Positions 1,264-12,974 of a DNA stretch of 40,253 nt are shown here, piece by piece. Location: contig CAMOBD010000007.1 of the NCBI GenBank assembly GCA_946578345.1, forward strand, positions 1-40,253. The letters run 5' to 3'. The translations under genes and the position numbers were made by a program. Every line of letters begins with the position of its first letter. Position 1 is the stretch's first letter. The notes under the pieces are model-generated. The model searched no databases. It was given only the letters and a program-made list of their open reading frames with translations, and was not told where the DNA came from. This stretch comes from an uncultured Clostridium sp. (GTDB taxonomy: Bacteria > Bacillota > Clostridia > TANB77 > CAG-508).

Positions 1264-2430
1264 TTATTCTTCTGCATTTTCTTGGTTAGTTTCCTCTTCT
1301 TCTATTTCATCACTAGATTCTGCTTCTTCTTGCATTTTTGCAAGCATTTCTCTAAATTGAGACTCGCTCTTTATATCTATTTTCCAATCTGTAAGTCTTG
1401 CAGCAAGTCTTGCATTTTGTCCACCTTTTCCTATAGCTAGTGATAATTGGTCATCCCTAACAATAACTTGTGCAAATTTTTCCTCTGGTTTAACATCAAC
1501 TGCCATAACCTCTGCTGGAAGTAATGCTGCAGAAATATATATTGCTGGATCTTCTGACCATTCTATAACATCTATTTTTTCTCCATTTAGCTCATTTATG
1601 ATGTTTTGTATACGAATTCCTTTTTGCCCAACACATGAACCAACAGGATCAATATTCTCATTTGGAGAATAAACTGCGACTTTACATCTATTACCTGGAT
1701 CTCTAGAAACACTTTTTATTTCAATTACACCCTCATAAATTTCTGGTATTTCTAATTCAAATAATTTTCTAACAAAGTCCACATGAGCCCTTGAAACAAT
1801 AACTTGTGGAGCTCCTTTTGCACCTTTTTCTACGTCTAAAATATATCCTCTAATTTTATCATTAACCTTATATTTTTCTGTTGGTATTTGCTCTTTAACA
1901 GGCATAATTCCTTCTAGTCTTCCTAAATCTAGAACAACAATTCCTCCATCAGCTTTTTGAACTATACCAGAAACAATTTCTCCTTTTCTTTCATTGAACT
2001 CATCAAACAAAAAGTTTCTTGTCTCTTCTCTAATTTTTTGTACAATAACTTGCTTTGCAGTTTGAGCTGCAATTCTACCAAAATTCTTTGGAACTTGCTC
2101 TATTTCTGCCTTATCTCCAACTTCTAATTTTTTATTTATTTTTCTTGCATCATCTAAACAAATTTGCAATTTATCGTTTTCAACATCTTCTGGTTTTTCT
2201 ACTACATCTTTTTCTGCATAAACATGAATTTCACCTGTCTCTCTATCCATTGTAATTCTCACATTCTCTGCAGAATCAAAATTTCTTTTATATGCTGTAA
2301 CTAATGCTGTTTCTATTGCTTCTAACAAAACGTCTTTCTTTATCCCATTTTCCTTTTCTAGTTCATCCATTGCTATTATTAATTCACTACTATCAATTGC
2401 TTGATTATTTATTTTAGATGTTTTCTTCAT
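1264..2430 (-). CDS. nusA: Transcription termination/antitermination factor NusA
   Basis: A 388-residue NusA, which binds RNA polymerase and nascent RNA to control pausing, termination and antitermination. Visible domains in order: N-terminal RNAP-binding domain (about 1-135), S1 domain (about 140-210), then two KH domains, the second containing LSLAIGKGGQNARLAARLT near residue 330. An acidic, Glu-rich tail follows. As in other Gram-positive bacteria it lacks the extra C-terminal acidic repeats of E. coli NusA. The start ATG is preceded by AAAGGAATGA at a good distance. It follows rimP by 112 nt. Confidence 0.97.
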   Translation of the reverse strand: MKKTSKINNQAIDSSELIIAMDELEKENGIKKDVLLEAIETALVTAYKRNFDSAENVRITMDRETGEIHVYAEKDVVEKPEDVENDKLQICLDDARKINKKLEVGDKAEIEQVPKNFGRIAAQTAKQVIVQKIREETRNFLFDEFNERKGEIVSGIVQKADGGIVVLDLGRLEGIMPVKEQIPTEKYKVNDKIRGYILDVEKGAKGAPQVIVSRAHVDFVRKLFELEIPEIYEGVIEIKSVSRDPGNRCKVAVYSPNENIDPVGSCVGQKGIRIQNIINELNGEKIDVIEWSEDPAIYISAALLPAEVMAVDVKPEEKFAQVIVRDDQLSLAIGKGGQNARLAARLTDWKIDIKSESQFREMLAKMQEEAESSDEIEEEETNQENAEE

Positions 2431-2542: not shown

Positions 2543-3172
2543 TTACGCTAAGCTGTCCCAGTCAAAAACTAACTTCATTTGGGAAATATTACTTCTTTCT
2601 AAATCAATCGTTTTTTCATCTTCCCGCCTTAACGTAACTTTGTCTTTGTCAAAACTTTCTAATATTCCTATTATTTCCTTTTGTTTACTATTTTTACTCT
2701 TTTTTTGTTTTTTATTCTTCTTATTTTGTTTAGACTTATTATTTTCTTCTAAACTTGTTTCTACATTGTTGCTATCTTCATCAGTTTGCTGCATATTACT
2801 TTTGCTTGCATCATTTTCAATATTTTCTGTATTACTTTCTAAATCAATCGCTTTAAAAAGTTTCACTTCAACTTCTTTGCCAATATTTTGTTCCAAATGC
2901 TCATCTCTTCGCAAAACCTTTTCAAGACCTGTAGAAGATACCTCTAAAAAATATTGTTCTTTAATATAGTCTGCTTTATCTAGTAAATCATTAATACCAT
3001 CATTTACTTTTTCACAATCATTTAAATCTATAGTTCCATTTGGCTTTTCTATGAATATACGTAAATAATAGTCTTGTCCTTCTTTTACATATTGTACATC
3101 ATATAGACTATACCCCAAATCTTCAATTGGCTTTTTTACTAGTTTTTCTACCTTTTCTTCTATATTTGACAT
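2543..3172 (-). CDS. rimP: Ribosome maturation factor RimP with a low-complexity insertion
   Basis: RimP helps assemble the 30S subunit. The N-terminal domain is normal (IEDLGYSLYDVQYVKEG; FLEVSSTGLEKVL). The C-terminal Sm-like domain starts at about residue 98 (GKEVEVKLFKAID) but is then interrupted by about 50 residues rich in Asn, Ser, Glu and Lys before resuming with IIGILESFDKDKVTL. This makes the protein 209 residues long against a usual 150-160. Codon 183 (2624-2626) is CGG, one of only two in-frame CGG codons in the window read without a frame change. First gene of the operon; ribosome binding site AGAAAGGAAAG. Confidence 0.93.
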   Translation of the reverse strand: MSNIEEKVEKLVKKPIEDLGYSLYDVQYVKEGQDYYLRIFIEKPNGTIDLNDCEKVNDGINDLLDKADYIKEQYFLEVSSTGLEKVLRRDEHLEQNIGKEVEVKLFKAIDLESNTENIENDASKSNMQQTDEDSNNVETSLEENNKSKQNKKNKKQKKSKNSKQKEIIGILESFDKDKVTLRREDEKTIDLERSNISQMKLVFDWDSLA

Positions 3173-3182
3173 ATTGCTTTCC

Positions 3183-3376
3183 TTTCTTAACTCTCTCTAG
3201 TAATAAGAAAAGTGGCTTCGCCACATGTGCATTTCGCTTCGCGAATATGCACGGTTCAAGGAAACTTAACCTTGTTGCTTTGGAAATTTCTGACGAAATT
3301 CCCTGCGCAATAAAAAAGAATTTGTGTTTTTTATTACTTATTACGTATAGAAGAGTGGAATCTGCTTCCACTCTTC
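3183..3376 (-). ncRNA. Candidate structured 5' leader RNA of the rimP-nusA operon
   Basis: Between a promoter at 3398-3426 and the rimP start lies a stretch packed with hairpins. A perfect 11-bp stem is at 3350-3376 (loop TCTGC). After it, AGTAATAA/TTATTACT (3199-3206 with 3331-3338) closes a junction holding four further hairpins at 3282-3302, 3253-3271, 3227-3252 and 3212-3224. The stems are directly visible; a regulatory function is inference. I know of no named RNA family matching it. It could instead be a composite intergenic repeat. Confidence 0.5.
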
Positions 3377-3397
3377 TGCTCTCCTTATGTCTATTTA

Positions 3398-3426
3398 ATT
3401 ATACTGCATATTTTTTCCAATTGCAA
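3398..3426 (-). promoter_or_regulatory. Probable sigma-A promoter of the rimP-nusA-infB operon
   Basis: On the minus strand, -35 TTGCAA (3421-3426), 17-nt spacer and perfect -10 TATAAT (3398-3403). Transcription would start near 3391 and give a leader of about 215 nt before rimP. Confidence 0.7.
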
Positions 3427-7779: not shown

Positions 7780-10095
7780 ATGAAAAACAAATATTTAAAA
7801 ACTTTAGAATTTGATAAAATAACGCAAATATTAAGCACATATTGCAAAACATATATAGGTAAAGAAAATATAGTTTCTTTGTTACCTAGCTTTGAGCAAT
7901 CTGAGGTAGCAAACCAATTAAAGTATACTACAGAAGCTATTAGCTTGATTTATAGGAAGGGTAACATTCCATTATCTGATATACCAAACATTTCTTTAAG
8001 TATTAAAGGATTGGAAAGTAACTCCACCCTATTTAGCCTAGCTCTGCTAAATATTGCTAGATTTTTGCAAATATCAAGAGAAGTAAAAGGGTACTTCTTT
8101 TCTTCTGATGAAATTGATTTAACTGAATATGCGAAATTGTATGATTTGTTTGATTTGATTTACACAAACAAAAATATCGAAGAAAAAATTTTTTCTGTTA
8201 TATTAGATGAAAACACTATTGCAGATGATGCATCACCTAAACTAAAAGGGCTAAGACGTCAAAGTAAAAAATTGGAGCAAGATATTAGAGATAAGTTAAA
8301 TTCGTTTTTACATTCAAATACTTACTCAAAGTATATTATGGAGCCAATTGTAACAATTAGAGAAAATAGATATGTTGTGCCTATAAAAGAGGAATACAAA
8401 TCACAGATAAAAGGGTTTATACACGATGTGTCTAGCAGTGGCTCAACTGTATTTATAGAGCCTTTATCTGTATTTGAGCTCAACAATGAAATTAACAACT
8501 TAAAAGTCGAGGAAGATATTGAGATAGAAAGAATATTAGCAGATTTGTCTAGTATGCTATATGGTTACACTGCAAATTTGCAAAACAATATCACTATATT
8601 AGGAGATTTAGATTTAATATTTGCGAAAGCAACATATTCAATCGATATTGATGGTGTTTTACCTAGCATAAATAACGAAAAATATATAAATCTAGTATCT
8701 GCTAGACATCCATTAATTGATAAAGACAAAGTTGTGCCAATTGACATCTCTATTGGCAAAGACTACACTTCTTTAGTTATAACTGGTCCAAATACTGGTG
8801 GTAAAACAGTTGCGCTAAAAACTACTGGATTACTTCTTCTTATGGCTTATTCTGGCATATATATACCAGCTAAAGAAAGTAGCTCTATATATGCTTTTGA
8901 TGACATATATGCCGATATTGGAGATGAACAAAGCATACAAGAAAACTTGAGTACATTTTCTTCACATATTTCTAATATAGTGGAGATAACTAAAAAAGCT
9001 ACAGCAAGCAGTCTAGTTCTTGTTGATGAGCTTGGCTCTGGAACAGACCCTATTGAAGGTGCTAACCTTGCAATTAGTATATTAAAATACTTTTTCGATT
9101 TAGGAGCTACTGTTCTTTCAACAACACATTATCAGGAACTTAAAAATTATTGTTTAGTTACTAAAGGTTTCAAAAACGCAAGCTTTGAATTTGATTTAGA
9201 AAATCTAAAACCAACATATAAATTGCTAATTGGTATTCCTGGAAAAAGTAATGCTTTCGCAATCAGCAAAAAGCTTGGACTTAATGATAAAATTCTAAGC
9301 TATGCTAATTCTCTAATGAAAAATGATGATGTTAGTATAGAAGAAGTTATGAAAAATATATATGATAACAAAATTGCTATTGACAAAGAAAAGGAAGAAA
9401 TCGAAAAGAATTTGAAACAAGTAGAAATGTTACGTAAATCTTTGGAAAGAGACAATAATTTGCAAAAAGAAAAGCAAGATAAGATTATTGAAACTGCTAA
9501 AAAAGAAGCAAGACAGATTTTGCAAGACGCTAAAGATGAAGCAAATACTGTTATAAAAGAATTGAATAAACTGGACAAAGGAGATATTGCTACTGCAAAT
9601 AATTTGAGAAATAAATTGAATGATGATATAAAGGGCATTGCTCCCGACACTTCTAATGGATTAAATTTAGATGCTTTAAAAGCATTAAATGATAAATTTA
9701 GCTTGAAGAATAGCTCTTTTGAAAATAGTGTTAAGAAAAGCAGTTCAGGCTCAATTAACTCTGTAGAAAATTCATATACACCTGCAAATAAAAAGTCTGG
9801 GCATAATTCTTCTGTTACATTTACAAAAAATGCAAAATTCAAATCACAAAATATCTCAAGCGAAATAAATGTAATAGGAATGAATGTTGATGAAGCAACT
9901 TTTGTGATAGACAAATACTTAGATGACTGTGCAATTGCCAAACTTTCACCAGTTAGAATTGTACATGGAAAAGGTACCGGCAAATTAAGAGAAGGAATTC
10001 ACAAATTCCTCAAAACTAATCCTCACGTAAAATCCTTTAGGCTTGGCACTTTTGGAGAAGGCGAAATGGGAGTTACTGTAGTGGAGTTAAAGTAA
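7780..10095 (+). CDS. mutS2: MutS2-family ATPase / endonuclease (ribosome rescue or anti-recombination)
   Basis: About 771 residues. It has the MutS2 core and clamp, then an ABC-type ATPase with Walker A GPNTGGKT near residue 336 and signature/Walker B LVLVDELGSGTDP near residue 413. A coiled-coil segment follows (about 520-610), then a linker rich in Ser and Asn, and a C-terminal Smr nuclease domain (VRIVHGKGTGKLREGI). MutS2 proteins suppress recombination in some bacteria and act on collided ribosomes in Bacillus; I cannot say which applies. I chose ATG 7780 (MKNKYLKTLEFDKI), which matches the family start and has GAAAGGA 12 nt upstream. A longer frame opening at 7666 begins inside the promoter and repeat. 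Confidence 0.95.
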   Translation: MKNKYLKTLEFDKITQILSTYCKTYIGKENIVSLLPSFEQSEVANQLKYTTEAISLIYRKGNIPLSDIPNISLSIKGLESNSTLFSLALLNIARFLQISREVKGYFFSSDEIDLTEYAKLYDLFDLIYTNKNIEEKIFSVILDENTIADDASPKLKGLRRQSKKLEQDIRDKLNSFLHSNTYSKYIMEPIVTIRENRYVVPIKEEYKSQIKGFIHDVSSSGSTVFIEPLSVFELNNEINNLKVEEDIEIERILADLSSMLYGYTANLQNNITILGDLDLIFAKATYSIDIDGVLPSINNEKYINLVSARHPLIDKDKVVPIDISIGKDYTSLVITGPNTGGKTVALKTTGLLLLMAYSGIYIPAKESSSIYAFDDIYADIGDEQSIQENLSTFSSHISNIVEITKKATASSLVLVDELGSGTDPIEGANLAISILKYFFDLGATVLSTTHYQELKNYCLVTKGFKNASFEFDLENLKPTYKLLIGIPGKSNAFAISKKLGLNDKILSYANSLMKNDDVSIEEVMKNIYDNKIAIDKEKEEIEKNLKQVEMLRKSLERDNNLQKEKQDKIIETAKKEARQILQDAKDEANTVIKELNKLDKGDIATANNLRNKLNDDIKGIAPDTSNGLNLDALKALNDKFSLKNSSFENSVKKSSSGSINSVENSYTPANKKSGHNSSVTFTKNAKFKSQNISSEINVIGMNVDEATFVIDKYLDDCAIAKLSPVRIVHGKGTGKLREGIHKFLKTNPHVKSFRLGTFGEGEMGVTVVELK

Positions 10096-10196: not shown

Positions 10197-12974
10197 TTAT
10201 TGCCAACTTAAAATTACAAATCCATTGTTTATATTATTGCTATCTAATTTCCAAATAGTTTCTCCCCCAATTAAGTTTATAAATTCTATTGTTTTCATAT
10301 CATCCTCTGTTCTAGATGAATCCGAAGTTGTATCTCCTAAATAATAGCAGTTTGTAACTTCTGTATCAATTTCTTCAAAACCTACTAGACTTGATGTTGT
10401 ATCACTTTCTTGAATACTATATATGTTATATGAATTCCTTATTATACTGTTTTCTTTAGCAAATCCTATTATTCCTCCAACATCTCTATAATTACATAGA
10501 ATTTTTCCTGTATTATAACAATATTCGGTCCTAGAATTGTTATATGTCTCACCAGCAATTCCTCCTATGGCAGAATCCCCATTCACATTAGGCTTCTCTG
10601 ATATTATATCTCCTTTGTTATAGCAATTGCTGACATAAGTCCCAGATGTTCCAGCAATGCCTCCTACTGCTGATATTCCTTTTATCTCTCCACTATTCCA
10701 ACATTTTAAAATATTTCCCTTGTTGCCTCCAGCAATTCCTCCACTAAAACTATTTACTTGTTCAGATGAAATTGCAATTCCTTTTGCCTCTATTTTGCCT
10801 GTATTATAGCAGTTTTCTATGTTAGCTAGTTCACCATTTTCAGCCTGAAACACATCGCCAGCAATTCCTCCTACTATTCCAGTCTCTGAAATTATATTTC
10901 CTGCATTGTATGAATTACTTATGCTTCCTCCTATGATAACAGATGCAACTCCTGCAACATGGTCACCTTTTCCATATATTGTACCAATATTATAGCAGTT
11001 TTCTATCTTAGCATCTGTATAGCTGTTATCTATCTGCCCTACAATTCCACCTACACATGAGTTGTTGTTATTATCCTTATCATTTTCAATATTACCTTCA
11101 TTGTGACAATTTTCAATTTTGCAATTACTAGTTCCAGCTATTCCTCCAACGTATGAGCCATTAGAATTTATTTCTCCTTTATTTATACAATCTATAATTT
11201 CTCCATTAATACTATGACCTGCAATTCCTCCTGCCCAAATAATACCTTCACTGTCTCCTTTTGAATTAATTGCTAATTTACCTTCATTCGTACAGTCTTC
11301 TATTTTACCTTTATTAGTAAACAAGCCAACTATTCCTCCTACTATATATCCATTATTTTGAGTAATAACTGCCATATTACTACAATTACTAATATTCGTA
11401 TTAACTGTAATGCCACTAATTCCTCCTACTCCATTTCCTTCTGATTCAACAGGTCCATTATTATCACAGTCACTTATGTTTCCATTTGCTACATATCCAA
11501 TTACTCCTCCTATTGTAGCATCTCCATTTACGTTTTGCCCTGTAACAGTAACTTTACCTGCATTATTACAATTATTCACTGTTCCATATGTTATACCAGC
11601 TACTCCTCCTGTTGCAGAATATACACTAGTTATATTTCCAGCATTTTCACTGTTTGATATATTTCCTTCCAAATATCCTATAACTCCTCCAATAAATGTA
11701 TCTTTTACATCATTTGTATATTCTTGACTAGAAACATCTCCACTATTAGAGCATCCTTCTACTGTACTTGTTCCTAGAGCCTTTCCAATCACTCCTCCTG
11801 CATTTCCCCTTTGTGCTATAATCTGTGCTCCATTTTTACAATTTATTATTTGTGTGTTTTTTGCATTGCCTACTATTCCTCCAACAAATTCTGCTCCTTC
11901 TACTTTTCCACTCTCTATTGTTATATTTTGCATTGTTGCATTCTCTGCATATCCAATTATCCCTTGGCTGTTTGATGTTGTATCTCTATTATATAAATTT
12001 GTTATTTTATGGTTGTTTCCCTCTAACGTTCCTGAAAACGGATGACTTTCACTTCCTATTGCTATCCAATTTTGGTTTGTTTTACTTCCTCCTAAATCAA
12101 TGTCGTTTGCTATTCGTATTCTTTTCCCTTCAAAAGTTTCTCCTCCTTCAACTCTGCTTCTAAATTTGTCAAAATCCTCAGTAGTCTTTATTACATAGTT
12201 ATCTACATTTACATTGTTTGACACATATATCTCTCCTGAAGTTCCTCTGCCTTGTACTGTACATTCCAATGTTTCAAATCCATATTCTGTCACTTCTATT
12301 TCTACTGTTTTTGCATTTGTATTTATTTCTTTATACTTCTCATTATTTATATAAAATGTGTATCTACTAATACTTCCTGTATCTTCTAAACTTGCAATCA
12401 ACTTAAATCCTTGCTCCGTCTCCTCTGCCTCTAATTTTATTGGCATTATCTCTTTTGCTTCTAAAATATATATTTTTCCTTCATGCAACTGAATACCTTC
12501 ATTTACGAATACCATATTCGTACTTATATCCATAAAATATCTTTTCTCTTTAATTCCTGTCAAGTTCAATTTTCCTAAATCCAAATAATATAGATTTGAA
12601 AAATTTATATTTTCTATGCTATCTACTCCGTATTGGTATTCTACTATAGTCTCTAATGTCTTATTATCTGTAATATCATCTTTTAGTACTTGCTCACCTA
12701 TTGGGTCCTCATATTCTTCACGCAAACTATTTCCTAAATAATACATGTTTAGTGATTCTTTTATAACAGCAACCTCAGACTCATTTTTGGCTATCTGTGC
12801 CATTGTAATCAAACCATTGTCCCCAAATATTGCATTTATAGATACTGTTGATAAAATAATAATAATTATTATCGTAATTACTAATGCGACTAAAGTTATT
12901 CCTCTTCGATCTTGCACTTTAAAAAGGATAGACTTATTATGTAAATGCTCATTATTGTAAATAGCATTTCTCAT
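10197..12974 (-). CDS. GLUG-repeat surface protein with pilin-like N-terminus
   Basis: 925 residues. The N-terminus has RRGITLVALVITIIIIIIL (about 23-41), a type IV pilin-like hydrophobic segment preceded by basic residues. It lacks the usual Glu at position 5 after the cleavage-type Gly, so processing by a prepilin peptidase is uncertain. After a stalk region (about 45-260) there are roughly twenty GLUG-type repeats such as GGIVGQIDN and IENCYNIGTIYGKG, ending in a WKLDSNNINNGFVILSW tail. Such proteins are predicted to be long extracellular beta-helix adhesins. Start ATG 12974 has AGAAGGA upstream, and a TATAAT lies at 13002-13007. A (GA)n tract is 60 nt upstream. The ligand is unknown. Confidence 0.85.
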   Translation of the reverse strand: MRNAIYNNEHLHNKSILFKVQDRRGITLVALVITIIIIIILSTVSINAIFGDNGLITMAQIAKNESEVAVIKESLNMYYLGNSLREEYEDPIGEQVLKDDITDNKTLETIVEYQYGVDSIENINFSNLYYLDLGKLNLTGIKEKRYFMDISTNMVFVNEGIQLHEGKIYILEAKEIMPIKLEAEETEQGFKLIASLEDTGSISRYTFYINNEKYKEINTNAKTVEIEVTEYGFETLECTVQGRGTSGEIYVSNNVNVDNYVIKTTEDFDKFRSRVEGGETFEGKRIRIANDIDLGGSKTNQNWIAIGSESHPFSGTLEGNNHKITNLYNRDTTSNSQGIIGYAENATMQNITIESGKVEGAEFVGGIVGNAKNTQIINCKNGAQIIAQRGNAGGVIGKALGTSTVEGCSNSGDVSSQEYTNDVKDTFIGGVIGYLEGNISNSENAGNITSVYSATGGVAGITYGTVNNCNNAGKVTVTGQNVNGDATIGGVIGYVANGNISDCDNNGPVESEGNGVGGISGITVNTNISNCSNMAVITQNNGYIVGGIVGLFTNKGKIEDCTNEGKLAINSKGDSEGIIWAGGIAGHSINGEIIDCINKGEINSNGSYVGGIAGTSNCKIENCHNEGNIENDKDNNNNSCVGGIVGQIDNSYTDAKIENCYNIGTIYGKGDHVAGVASVIIGGSISNSYNAGNIISETGIVGGIAGDVFQAENGELANIENCYNTGKIEAKGIAISSEQVNSFSGGIAGGNKGNILKCWNSGEIKGISAVGGIAGTSGTYVSNCYNKGDIISEKPNVNGDSAIGGIAGETYNNSRTEYCYNTGKILCNYRDVGGIIGFAKENSIIRNSYNIYSIQESDTTSSLVGFEEIDTEVTNCYYLGDTTSDSSRTEDDMKTIEFINLIGGETIWKLDSNNINNGFVILSWQ

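Follow-up and report, generated by a model that had tools for sequence, protein, structure and literature searches.

The best described counterpart of the leader studied here is rimP-leader, an attenuator family that ranked first among attenuated genes in the work of Naville & Gautheret (2010, PMC2965389), who proposed NusA as the protein acting on it. RNA-seq of S. agalactiae placed termination 31 nt after the start, and NusA autoregulation was proposed (PMC4448216). In B. subtilis, the accepted model, as given in a review that cites Mondal 2016 (PMC12288461), is that NusA autoregulates via NusA-stimulated termination in its own leader. Dispersed elements have also been described in this setting, as the "mobile attenuators" or BIME-derived attenuators of Naville & Gautheret (PMC2965389).

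The window, that is, the whole 40,253-nucleotide stretch analysed here, belongs to an AT-rich draft genome of 1.8 Mb in 125 contigs. The order on the minus strand is pheST, a promoter and leader, and then rimP (2543..3172, minus; PF02576 and PF17384), nusA (1264..2430, minus; PF08529, PF13184 and PF00575), ylxR, an L7Ae-like gene and infB. The N and C domains of the RimP protein (window 2543-3172, minus) are separated by a Lys/Asn-rich insert of low complexity (approximately residues 112-160), whose length varies within the genus. Elsewhere in the window (10197-12974, minus), a 925-aa protein combines a type IV pilin-like N-terminus, GITLVALVITIIIIIILSTVSI, with GLUG repeats (PF07581). The leader consists of the promoter, a 12-bp hairpin, an A/T-only hairpin, four more hairpins, the ribosome-binding site and the rimP ATG. 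The whole leader folded better than its dinucleotide shuffles, with a z-score of -8.4 and none of 200 shuffles as good. A first-pass annotation had interpreted it as a multi-hairpin operon leader of no known RNA class. Our analysis indicates that the leader is very probably a composite, in which the native promoter and a conserved hairpin of the rimP-leader type are joined by a 107-bp dispersed repeat, inserted behind a T-tract in this species only among those examined.

The rimP-nusA operon starts from a sigma-70-type promoter, TTGCAA-17-TATAAT (3398..3426, minus), with a closely similar promoter at the equivalent place in same-genus genomes, which bears out the good promoter of the first-pass annotation. 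About 14 nt after the expected transcription start begins the promoter-proximal hairpin (3349..3377, minus), AGAAGAGTGGAA-GCAGA-TTCCACTCTTCT, with a predicted energy of -17.9 kcal/mol; the perfect hairpin annotated earlier is thus real, and has 12 perfect pairs, not 11. We read the rimP upstream regions of 30 genomes from five families of the order (this species, 17 genus relatives and 12 other genomes), all of them metagenome-assembled drafts, and found the hairpin upstream of rimP in every one. Within the genus, its sequence is nearly constant (GAAGAGTGGAAnCAnnTTCCACTCTTC). Across families, the arms change to GAGTGAGG/CCTCACTC, GAGTGGG/CCCACTC or GAGAGG/CCTCTC, with compensatory substitutions at several pairs of the stem. 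The pairs were counted by anchoring on GAG/CTC, because a cross-family MAFFT alignment placed one arm out of register.

The resemblance to the rimP-leader attenuator is considerable. In both cases a short, strong hairpin directly follows the promoter of the rimP-nusA-infB operon, the 5' arm is G-rich and the 3' arm C-rich, and there is no larger conserved structure. The rimP start codon lies 15-40 nt past the hairpin in most of the 30 genomes, inside the published range of 4-130 nt. The differences concern the core, the U-stretch and the spacing. The published core is GGGc/gCCC, whereas this genus has GTGGAA/TTCCAC, and several sister-family genomes have GTGGG/CCCAC. In the window the distance to rimP is 174-176 nt because of the inserted repeat. 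The U-tract is absent in this genus, where TTCTATACGTAA follows the hairpin, whereas sister families retain TTTNGTT; in the window copy, CTC is followed by TTCTATACGT, and the hairpin was not among the predicted terminator-like sites. Since the U-tract has been lost, we regard the first hairpin as orthologous to that of the rimP-leader attenuator minus this one feature, not as a canonical member of the family. The judgement that no known RNA class applied thus has to be revised, as rimP-leader is a described attenuator family (PMC2965389).

The first-pass annotation had also suggested NusA as a plausible effector, a function supported by the literature (PMC2965389, PMC4448216 and the review PMC12288461). 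The window has the operon and the early position of the hairpin in common with the NusA autoregulation of B. subtilis and that proposed for S. agalactiae; it differs from them in the missing U-tract. By extension from these other bacteria, NusA may repress its own operon soon after transcription start, by promoting a pause or termination at the first hairpin. Because the U-tract has decayed, termination in this genus can only be presumed, and the hairpin may cause a NusA-dependent pause or terminate transcription only weakly. The missing U-tract and the failure to score as a terminator also give some weight to a different reading, in which the hairpin no longer terminates in this genus and is merely a 5' mRNA-stabilising or pausing structure. 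We regard this as possible but doubtful. The stem occurs in all 30 genomes at a fixed distance from the start site and with compensatory changes, and within the genus it is followed by a TACGTAA-like motif. Moreover, NusA of B. subtilis is able to act at poor U-tracts.

The remaining four hairpins have a different history. When the whole leader was used as a query against its own genome and 29 relatives, query positions 1-104, covering the promoter and first hairpin, matched the rimP locus of genus members. This native match ended at position 103-104, and the matches to the repeat ran from about 107-116 to 228-234. The repeat part matched many other intergenic places, six of them in its own genome. 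In all 17 genus relatives searched, the leader query found between 1 and at least 30 matches per genome, mostly to the four-hairpin block. This dispersed repeat, designated element A, corresponds to a 107-bp unit, TGCGCAGGG...GCCACTTTTCTTAT (3203..3309, minus), with further copies in its own genome and in genomes searched with a covariance model, where the window copy scored an E-value of 6e-24. It was found before rimP in none of the 17 other genus members and none of the 12 other genomes, so that, among the genomes examined, only this species carries the four-hairpin block there.

The insertion target can be recognised in the leader. Immediately upstream of element A lies the arm of an A/T hairpin with its T-tract, AGTAATAAAAAA-cacaaattc-TTTTTTAT (3310..3338, minus), and the right arm of this hairpin resumes as TACT at 3202-3199. 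In-silico removal of 3309-3203 joined TTTTTTAT to TACT and re-formed a perfect 12-bp inverted repeat, AGTAATAAAAAA-cacaaattc-TTTTTTATTACT. The removed unit equals the 107-bp period of the tandem arrays of element A. The A/T hairpin is common to the window and its closest relative, G011, which has another repeat, element B, in the hairpin loop. A second site, behind era, lacks the element in G011, with flanks 97-99% identical, providing a clean empty site. Re-formation of a split hairpin as a general rule for the insertion sites was not supported on average; it was clear for the window copy and one further locus (L028). Element A lies precisely behind the T-tract (TTTTTTAT^TACT). It probably entered by a site-directed insertion favouring T-tracts behind intrinsic-terminator hairpins, and probably has no ancestral role in the rimP-nusA operon.

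The spacer between the first hairpin and rimP tolerates insertions, because five genus members have longer spacers of differing content: element A in the window, element B in G011 and G003, and unrelated sequence in G001 and G006. Element B is a second dispersed repeat of about 90 bp, GTTTTGGC...GTACACAAAGTACACCTC...GCCAAAAC, which entered the rimP leaders of G011 (L038) and G003 (L052) by independent insertions. We also observed it at L133, L185, L181, L084/L129, L121, L006 and L205; one relative, at L205 in another family, is situated near an IS200-type TnpA gene.

The four hairpins annotated earlier are present at 3310-3212, but the helix proposed to close them into a junction (3344-3337/3207-3200) was not predicted in the transcript. 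In the transcribed strand its pair probability was below 0.001 and it lay about 5 kcal/mol above the MFE; a complementary run as long occurred in 90 of 2000 shuffles (4.5%). The notion of a single new autoregulatory RNA spanning the entire multi-hairpin leader, with a ligand or protein binding the closed four-hairpin junction to control the operon, draws on the strong folding (z -8.4), the covarying hairpins and the position of the block between promoter and rimP. It is nevertheless scarcely credible, given that the block is missing before rimP in the 17 genus relatives and 12 other genomes, recurs at many unrelated sites with no strand preference, and lacks the predicted closing helix. Since the inserted repeat supplies the four other hairpins, the leader does not represent a new class of regulatory RNA. 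The first-pass annotation had named recurrence at unrelated sites, or lack of conservation upstream of rimP in relatives, as evidence that would tell against its reading. Recurrence was found for the four-hairpin block, which occupies seven sites in its own genome including the window copy, while the first hairpin is conserved before rimP. Of the supposed multi-hairpin operon leader, then, the promoter-proximal hairpin stands as a conserved feature, and the rest is a lineage-specific dispersed repeat found in both orientations.

Element A has a well-defined secondary structure. Hairpin 1 (3275..3310, minus), in which the T at 3310 takes part in the outer TTGC/GCAA pairs, showed covariation and falls into discrete length classes among copies. 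Hairpin 2, CAAGG-TTAAGTTT-CCTTG (3257..3274, minus), is the most conserved core, and its loop sequence CAACAAGGTTAAGTT was nearly invariant in 22 diverse copies. In hairpin 3, GTGCATATTCGCGAAGCGAAATGCAC (3227..3252, minus), six pairs were changed on both sides, and hairpin 4, GTGGCGAAGCCAC (3212..3224, minus), showed a compensatory GC to AT change. Hairpin 4 is weak (-5.6 kcal/mol); together with the TTTTCTTAT that follows it (3211-3203), it forms a predicted terminator-like end in the sense direction. Over the four hairpins, 89.7% of pairs were kept in the 22 diverse copies, and 14 pairs had changed on both sides, compared with 7.2 in shuffles (0 of 500 reaching this value) and at most 5 in slid controls. 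Because the covarying copies sit at unrelated loci, this covariation supports the repeat and not a function at rimP.

The left junction of element A is a variable host T-tract, and its right end is the constant TTTTCTTAT. The element accordingly has no terminal inverted repeats and no target duplication beyond TTAT. The features of classical MITEs were not found: the ends, TG...CTTTTCTTAT, are not inverted repeats, and at most TTAT occurs at both junctions. Tandem arrays with a period of 107 bp were present, for example on contig 56 of G009 at 7993, 8100 and 8207. In head-to-tail arrays (L067, L068, L069, L070, L198 and others), each copy starts in the T-tract of the preceding copy (...CCACTTTTCTTATTGTATAGG...). 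In variant ends, located in the left or right flanks at L074 (about 1331), L006 (about 612), L099, L106, L163 and L016, a longer stem such as TGTGCGTCGAAAGCTTTGCTTTCGNNAACGCACA plus TTTTCTTAT replaces hairpin 4, so that element A is modular at both ends. The copies at L115, L200, L134, L147 and L171 lack hairpin 1, and a host terminator leads straight into CTATACAACAAGG, as though a terminator and hairpin 1 could replace each other. We looked for a longer autonomous form with a gene inside hairpin 1, and the fetched loci gave just short loop variants.

Of 191 genomes of the order searched with the covariance model, 67 carry element A; they represent 22 of 39 genera. The carriers, with 1 to at least 20 copies each, belong nearly all to one family and are patchily distributed. 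The core was also found in gut Clostridia metagenome assemblies, including 'Candidatus Merdicola faecigallinarum', and no match was obtained in viral contigs, phages or plasmids. Rfam 15 gave no match for the window, at the gathering threshold or a permissive E-value, or for five element A loci. Element A is apparently an undescribed dispersed repeat family.

The copies showed a distinct preference for their insertion site. A hairpin of -7 kcal/mol or stronger stood just before the T-tract in 60 (56%) of the 107 non-tandem copies whose left end was clear. Among 321 control T-tracts, taken from intergenic parts of the same loci and matched for T content, the number was 35 (11%; odds ratio 10, p 4e-20). 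The downstream gene lay on the same strand in 56 of 111 cases, revealing no strand preference. The hairpin enrichment and the lack of strand preference imply that element A is not a leader element but prefers the T-tracts that follow intrinsic terminators; with the same-strand proportion just 56/111, a 5' leader regulon or riboswitch class was rejected. No recurrent gene was found beside element A beyond common families such as ABC ATPases. The covarying, RNA-like structure and the terminator-like hairpin at its end could also fit a multi-copy transcribed RNA family, such as a small RNA or an element for 3' processing, that had spread through duplication. This is improbable in view of the precise empty sites with a re-formed target palindrome, the tandem arrays with an exact 107-bp period, the patchy occurrence among genera (22/39) and the preference for terminator T-tracts as insertion sites.

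The empty sites and the distribution suggest that element A moves, and several known mobile elements offer comparisons. Like REP/BIME sequences with RAYT and non-autonomous IS200/IS605-type elements, element A is small, palindromic and intergenic, lacks terminal inverted repeats and forms tandem clusters. It differs in having four hairpins, a 107-bp unit and a target behind terminators, and several carriers are without any Y1 transposase. Y1 transposases are common in the order, and 250-310-aa proteins resembling them, of RAYT-like size, occur at 1-3 per genome in the genus (L208-L224; for instance on contigs 9, 63 and 83 of G000). In drafts judged 89-99% complete, however, PF01797 (Y1) had no match in the carriers G111 (14 copies), G070 (14), G078 (12), G012 (11), G114 (8) and G034 (7), and the Y1 genes examined had no copy within about 1.5 kb. 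On both grounds a Y1/RAYT transposase was rejected as the partner of element A. Group IIC introns insert behind terminator hairpins, and thus share with element A the preference for a T-tract in that position. The element, in contrast, is 107 bp long and has no Rfam intron structure, and the group II maturase PF08388 was absent in genus members, including those with at least 20 copies, so the group IIC intron machinery was discarded as well. The search among Y1 transposases, group II maturases and neighbouring genes thus found no enzyme moving element A. We tentatively consider that element A might be a distinct small mobile element that recognises a terminator hairpin plus T-tract and is moved by some enzyme other than a Y1 transposase or a group II maturase. 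Its own terminator-like end would make the element harmless there and would serve as the landing site for the next copy, hence the 107-bp tandem arrays.

Once in place, the copy in the rimP leader could secondarily affect the operon. Folding predicted base pairing between the probable Shine-Dalgarno region of rimP, AAGAAAGG (3181..3188, minus), and the T-rich end of element A; the predicted unpaired probability of this region was about 0.08 with the element and about 0.58 without it. By modelling, the terminator-like hairpin and T-rich end before the ribosome-binding site could therefore lower expression. It is conceivable, although rather unlikely, that the inserted copy has been exapted as a mobile attenuator, a second control point acting through its terminator-like end (3224-3212 plus TTTTCTTAT) and the Shine-Dalgarno pairing. 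The sense orientation of that end and the predicted drop in accessibility are in keeping with this, and there is precedent in the mobile attenuators (PMC2965389), which are likewise dispersed elements with a terminator-like end upstream of an unrelated cellular gene. Element A, however, is neither the end of a known IS nor a BIME. Furthermore, with one copy in one species no selection signal is measurable, a purine-rich Shine-Dalgarno can be expected from its composition to pair with a T-rich tract, and hairpin 4 is weak.

Taken together, these results show that a supposed new autoregulatory RNA was a false lead, and illustrate that a repeat insertion can make a leader resemble a complex riboswitch. 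They extend the known range of the rimP-leader hairpin by a gut Clostridia order, with 30 genomes, in which a genus that has kept the stem and dropped the U-tract offers a natural test of NusA action without a U-tract. They also reveal element A, a dispersed, structurally covarying repeat family that strongly favours positions behind transcription terminators. If the mover of element A is found, the family would represent a case of a safe-site insertion strategy.
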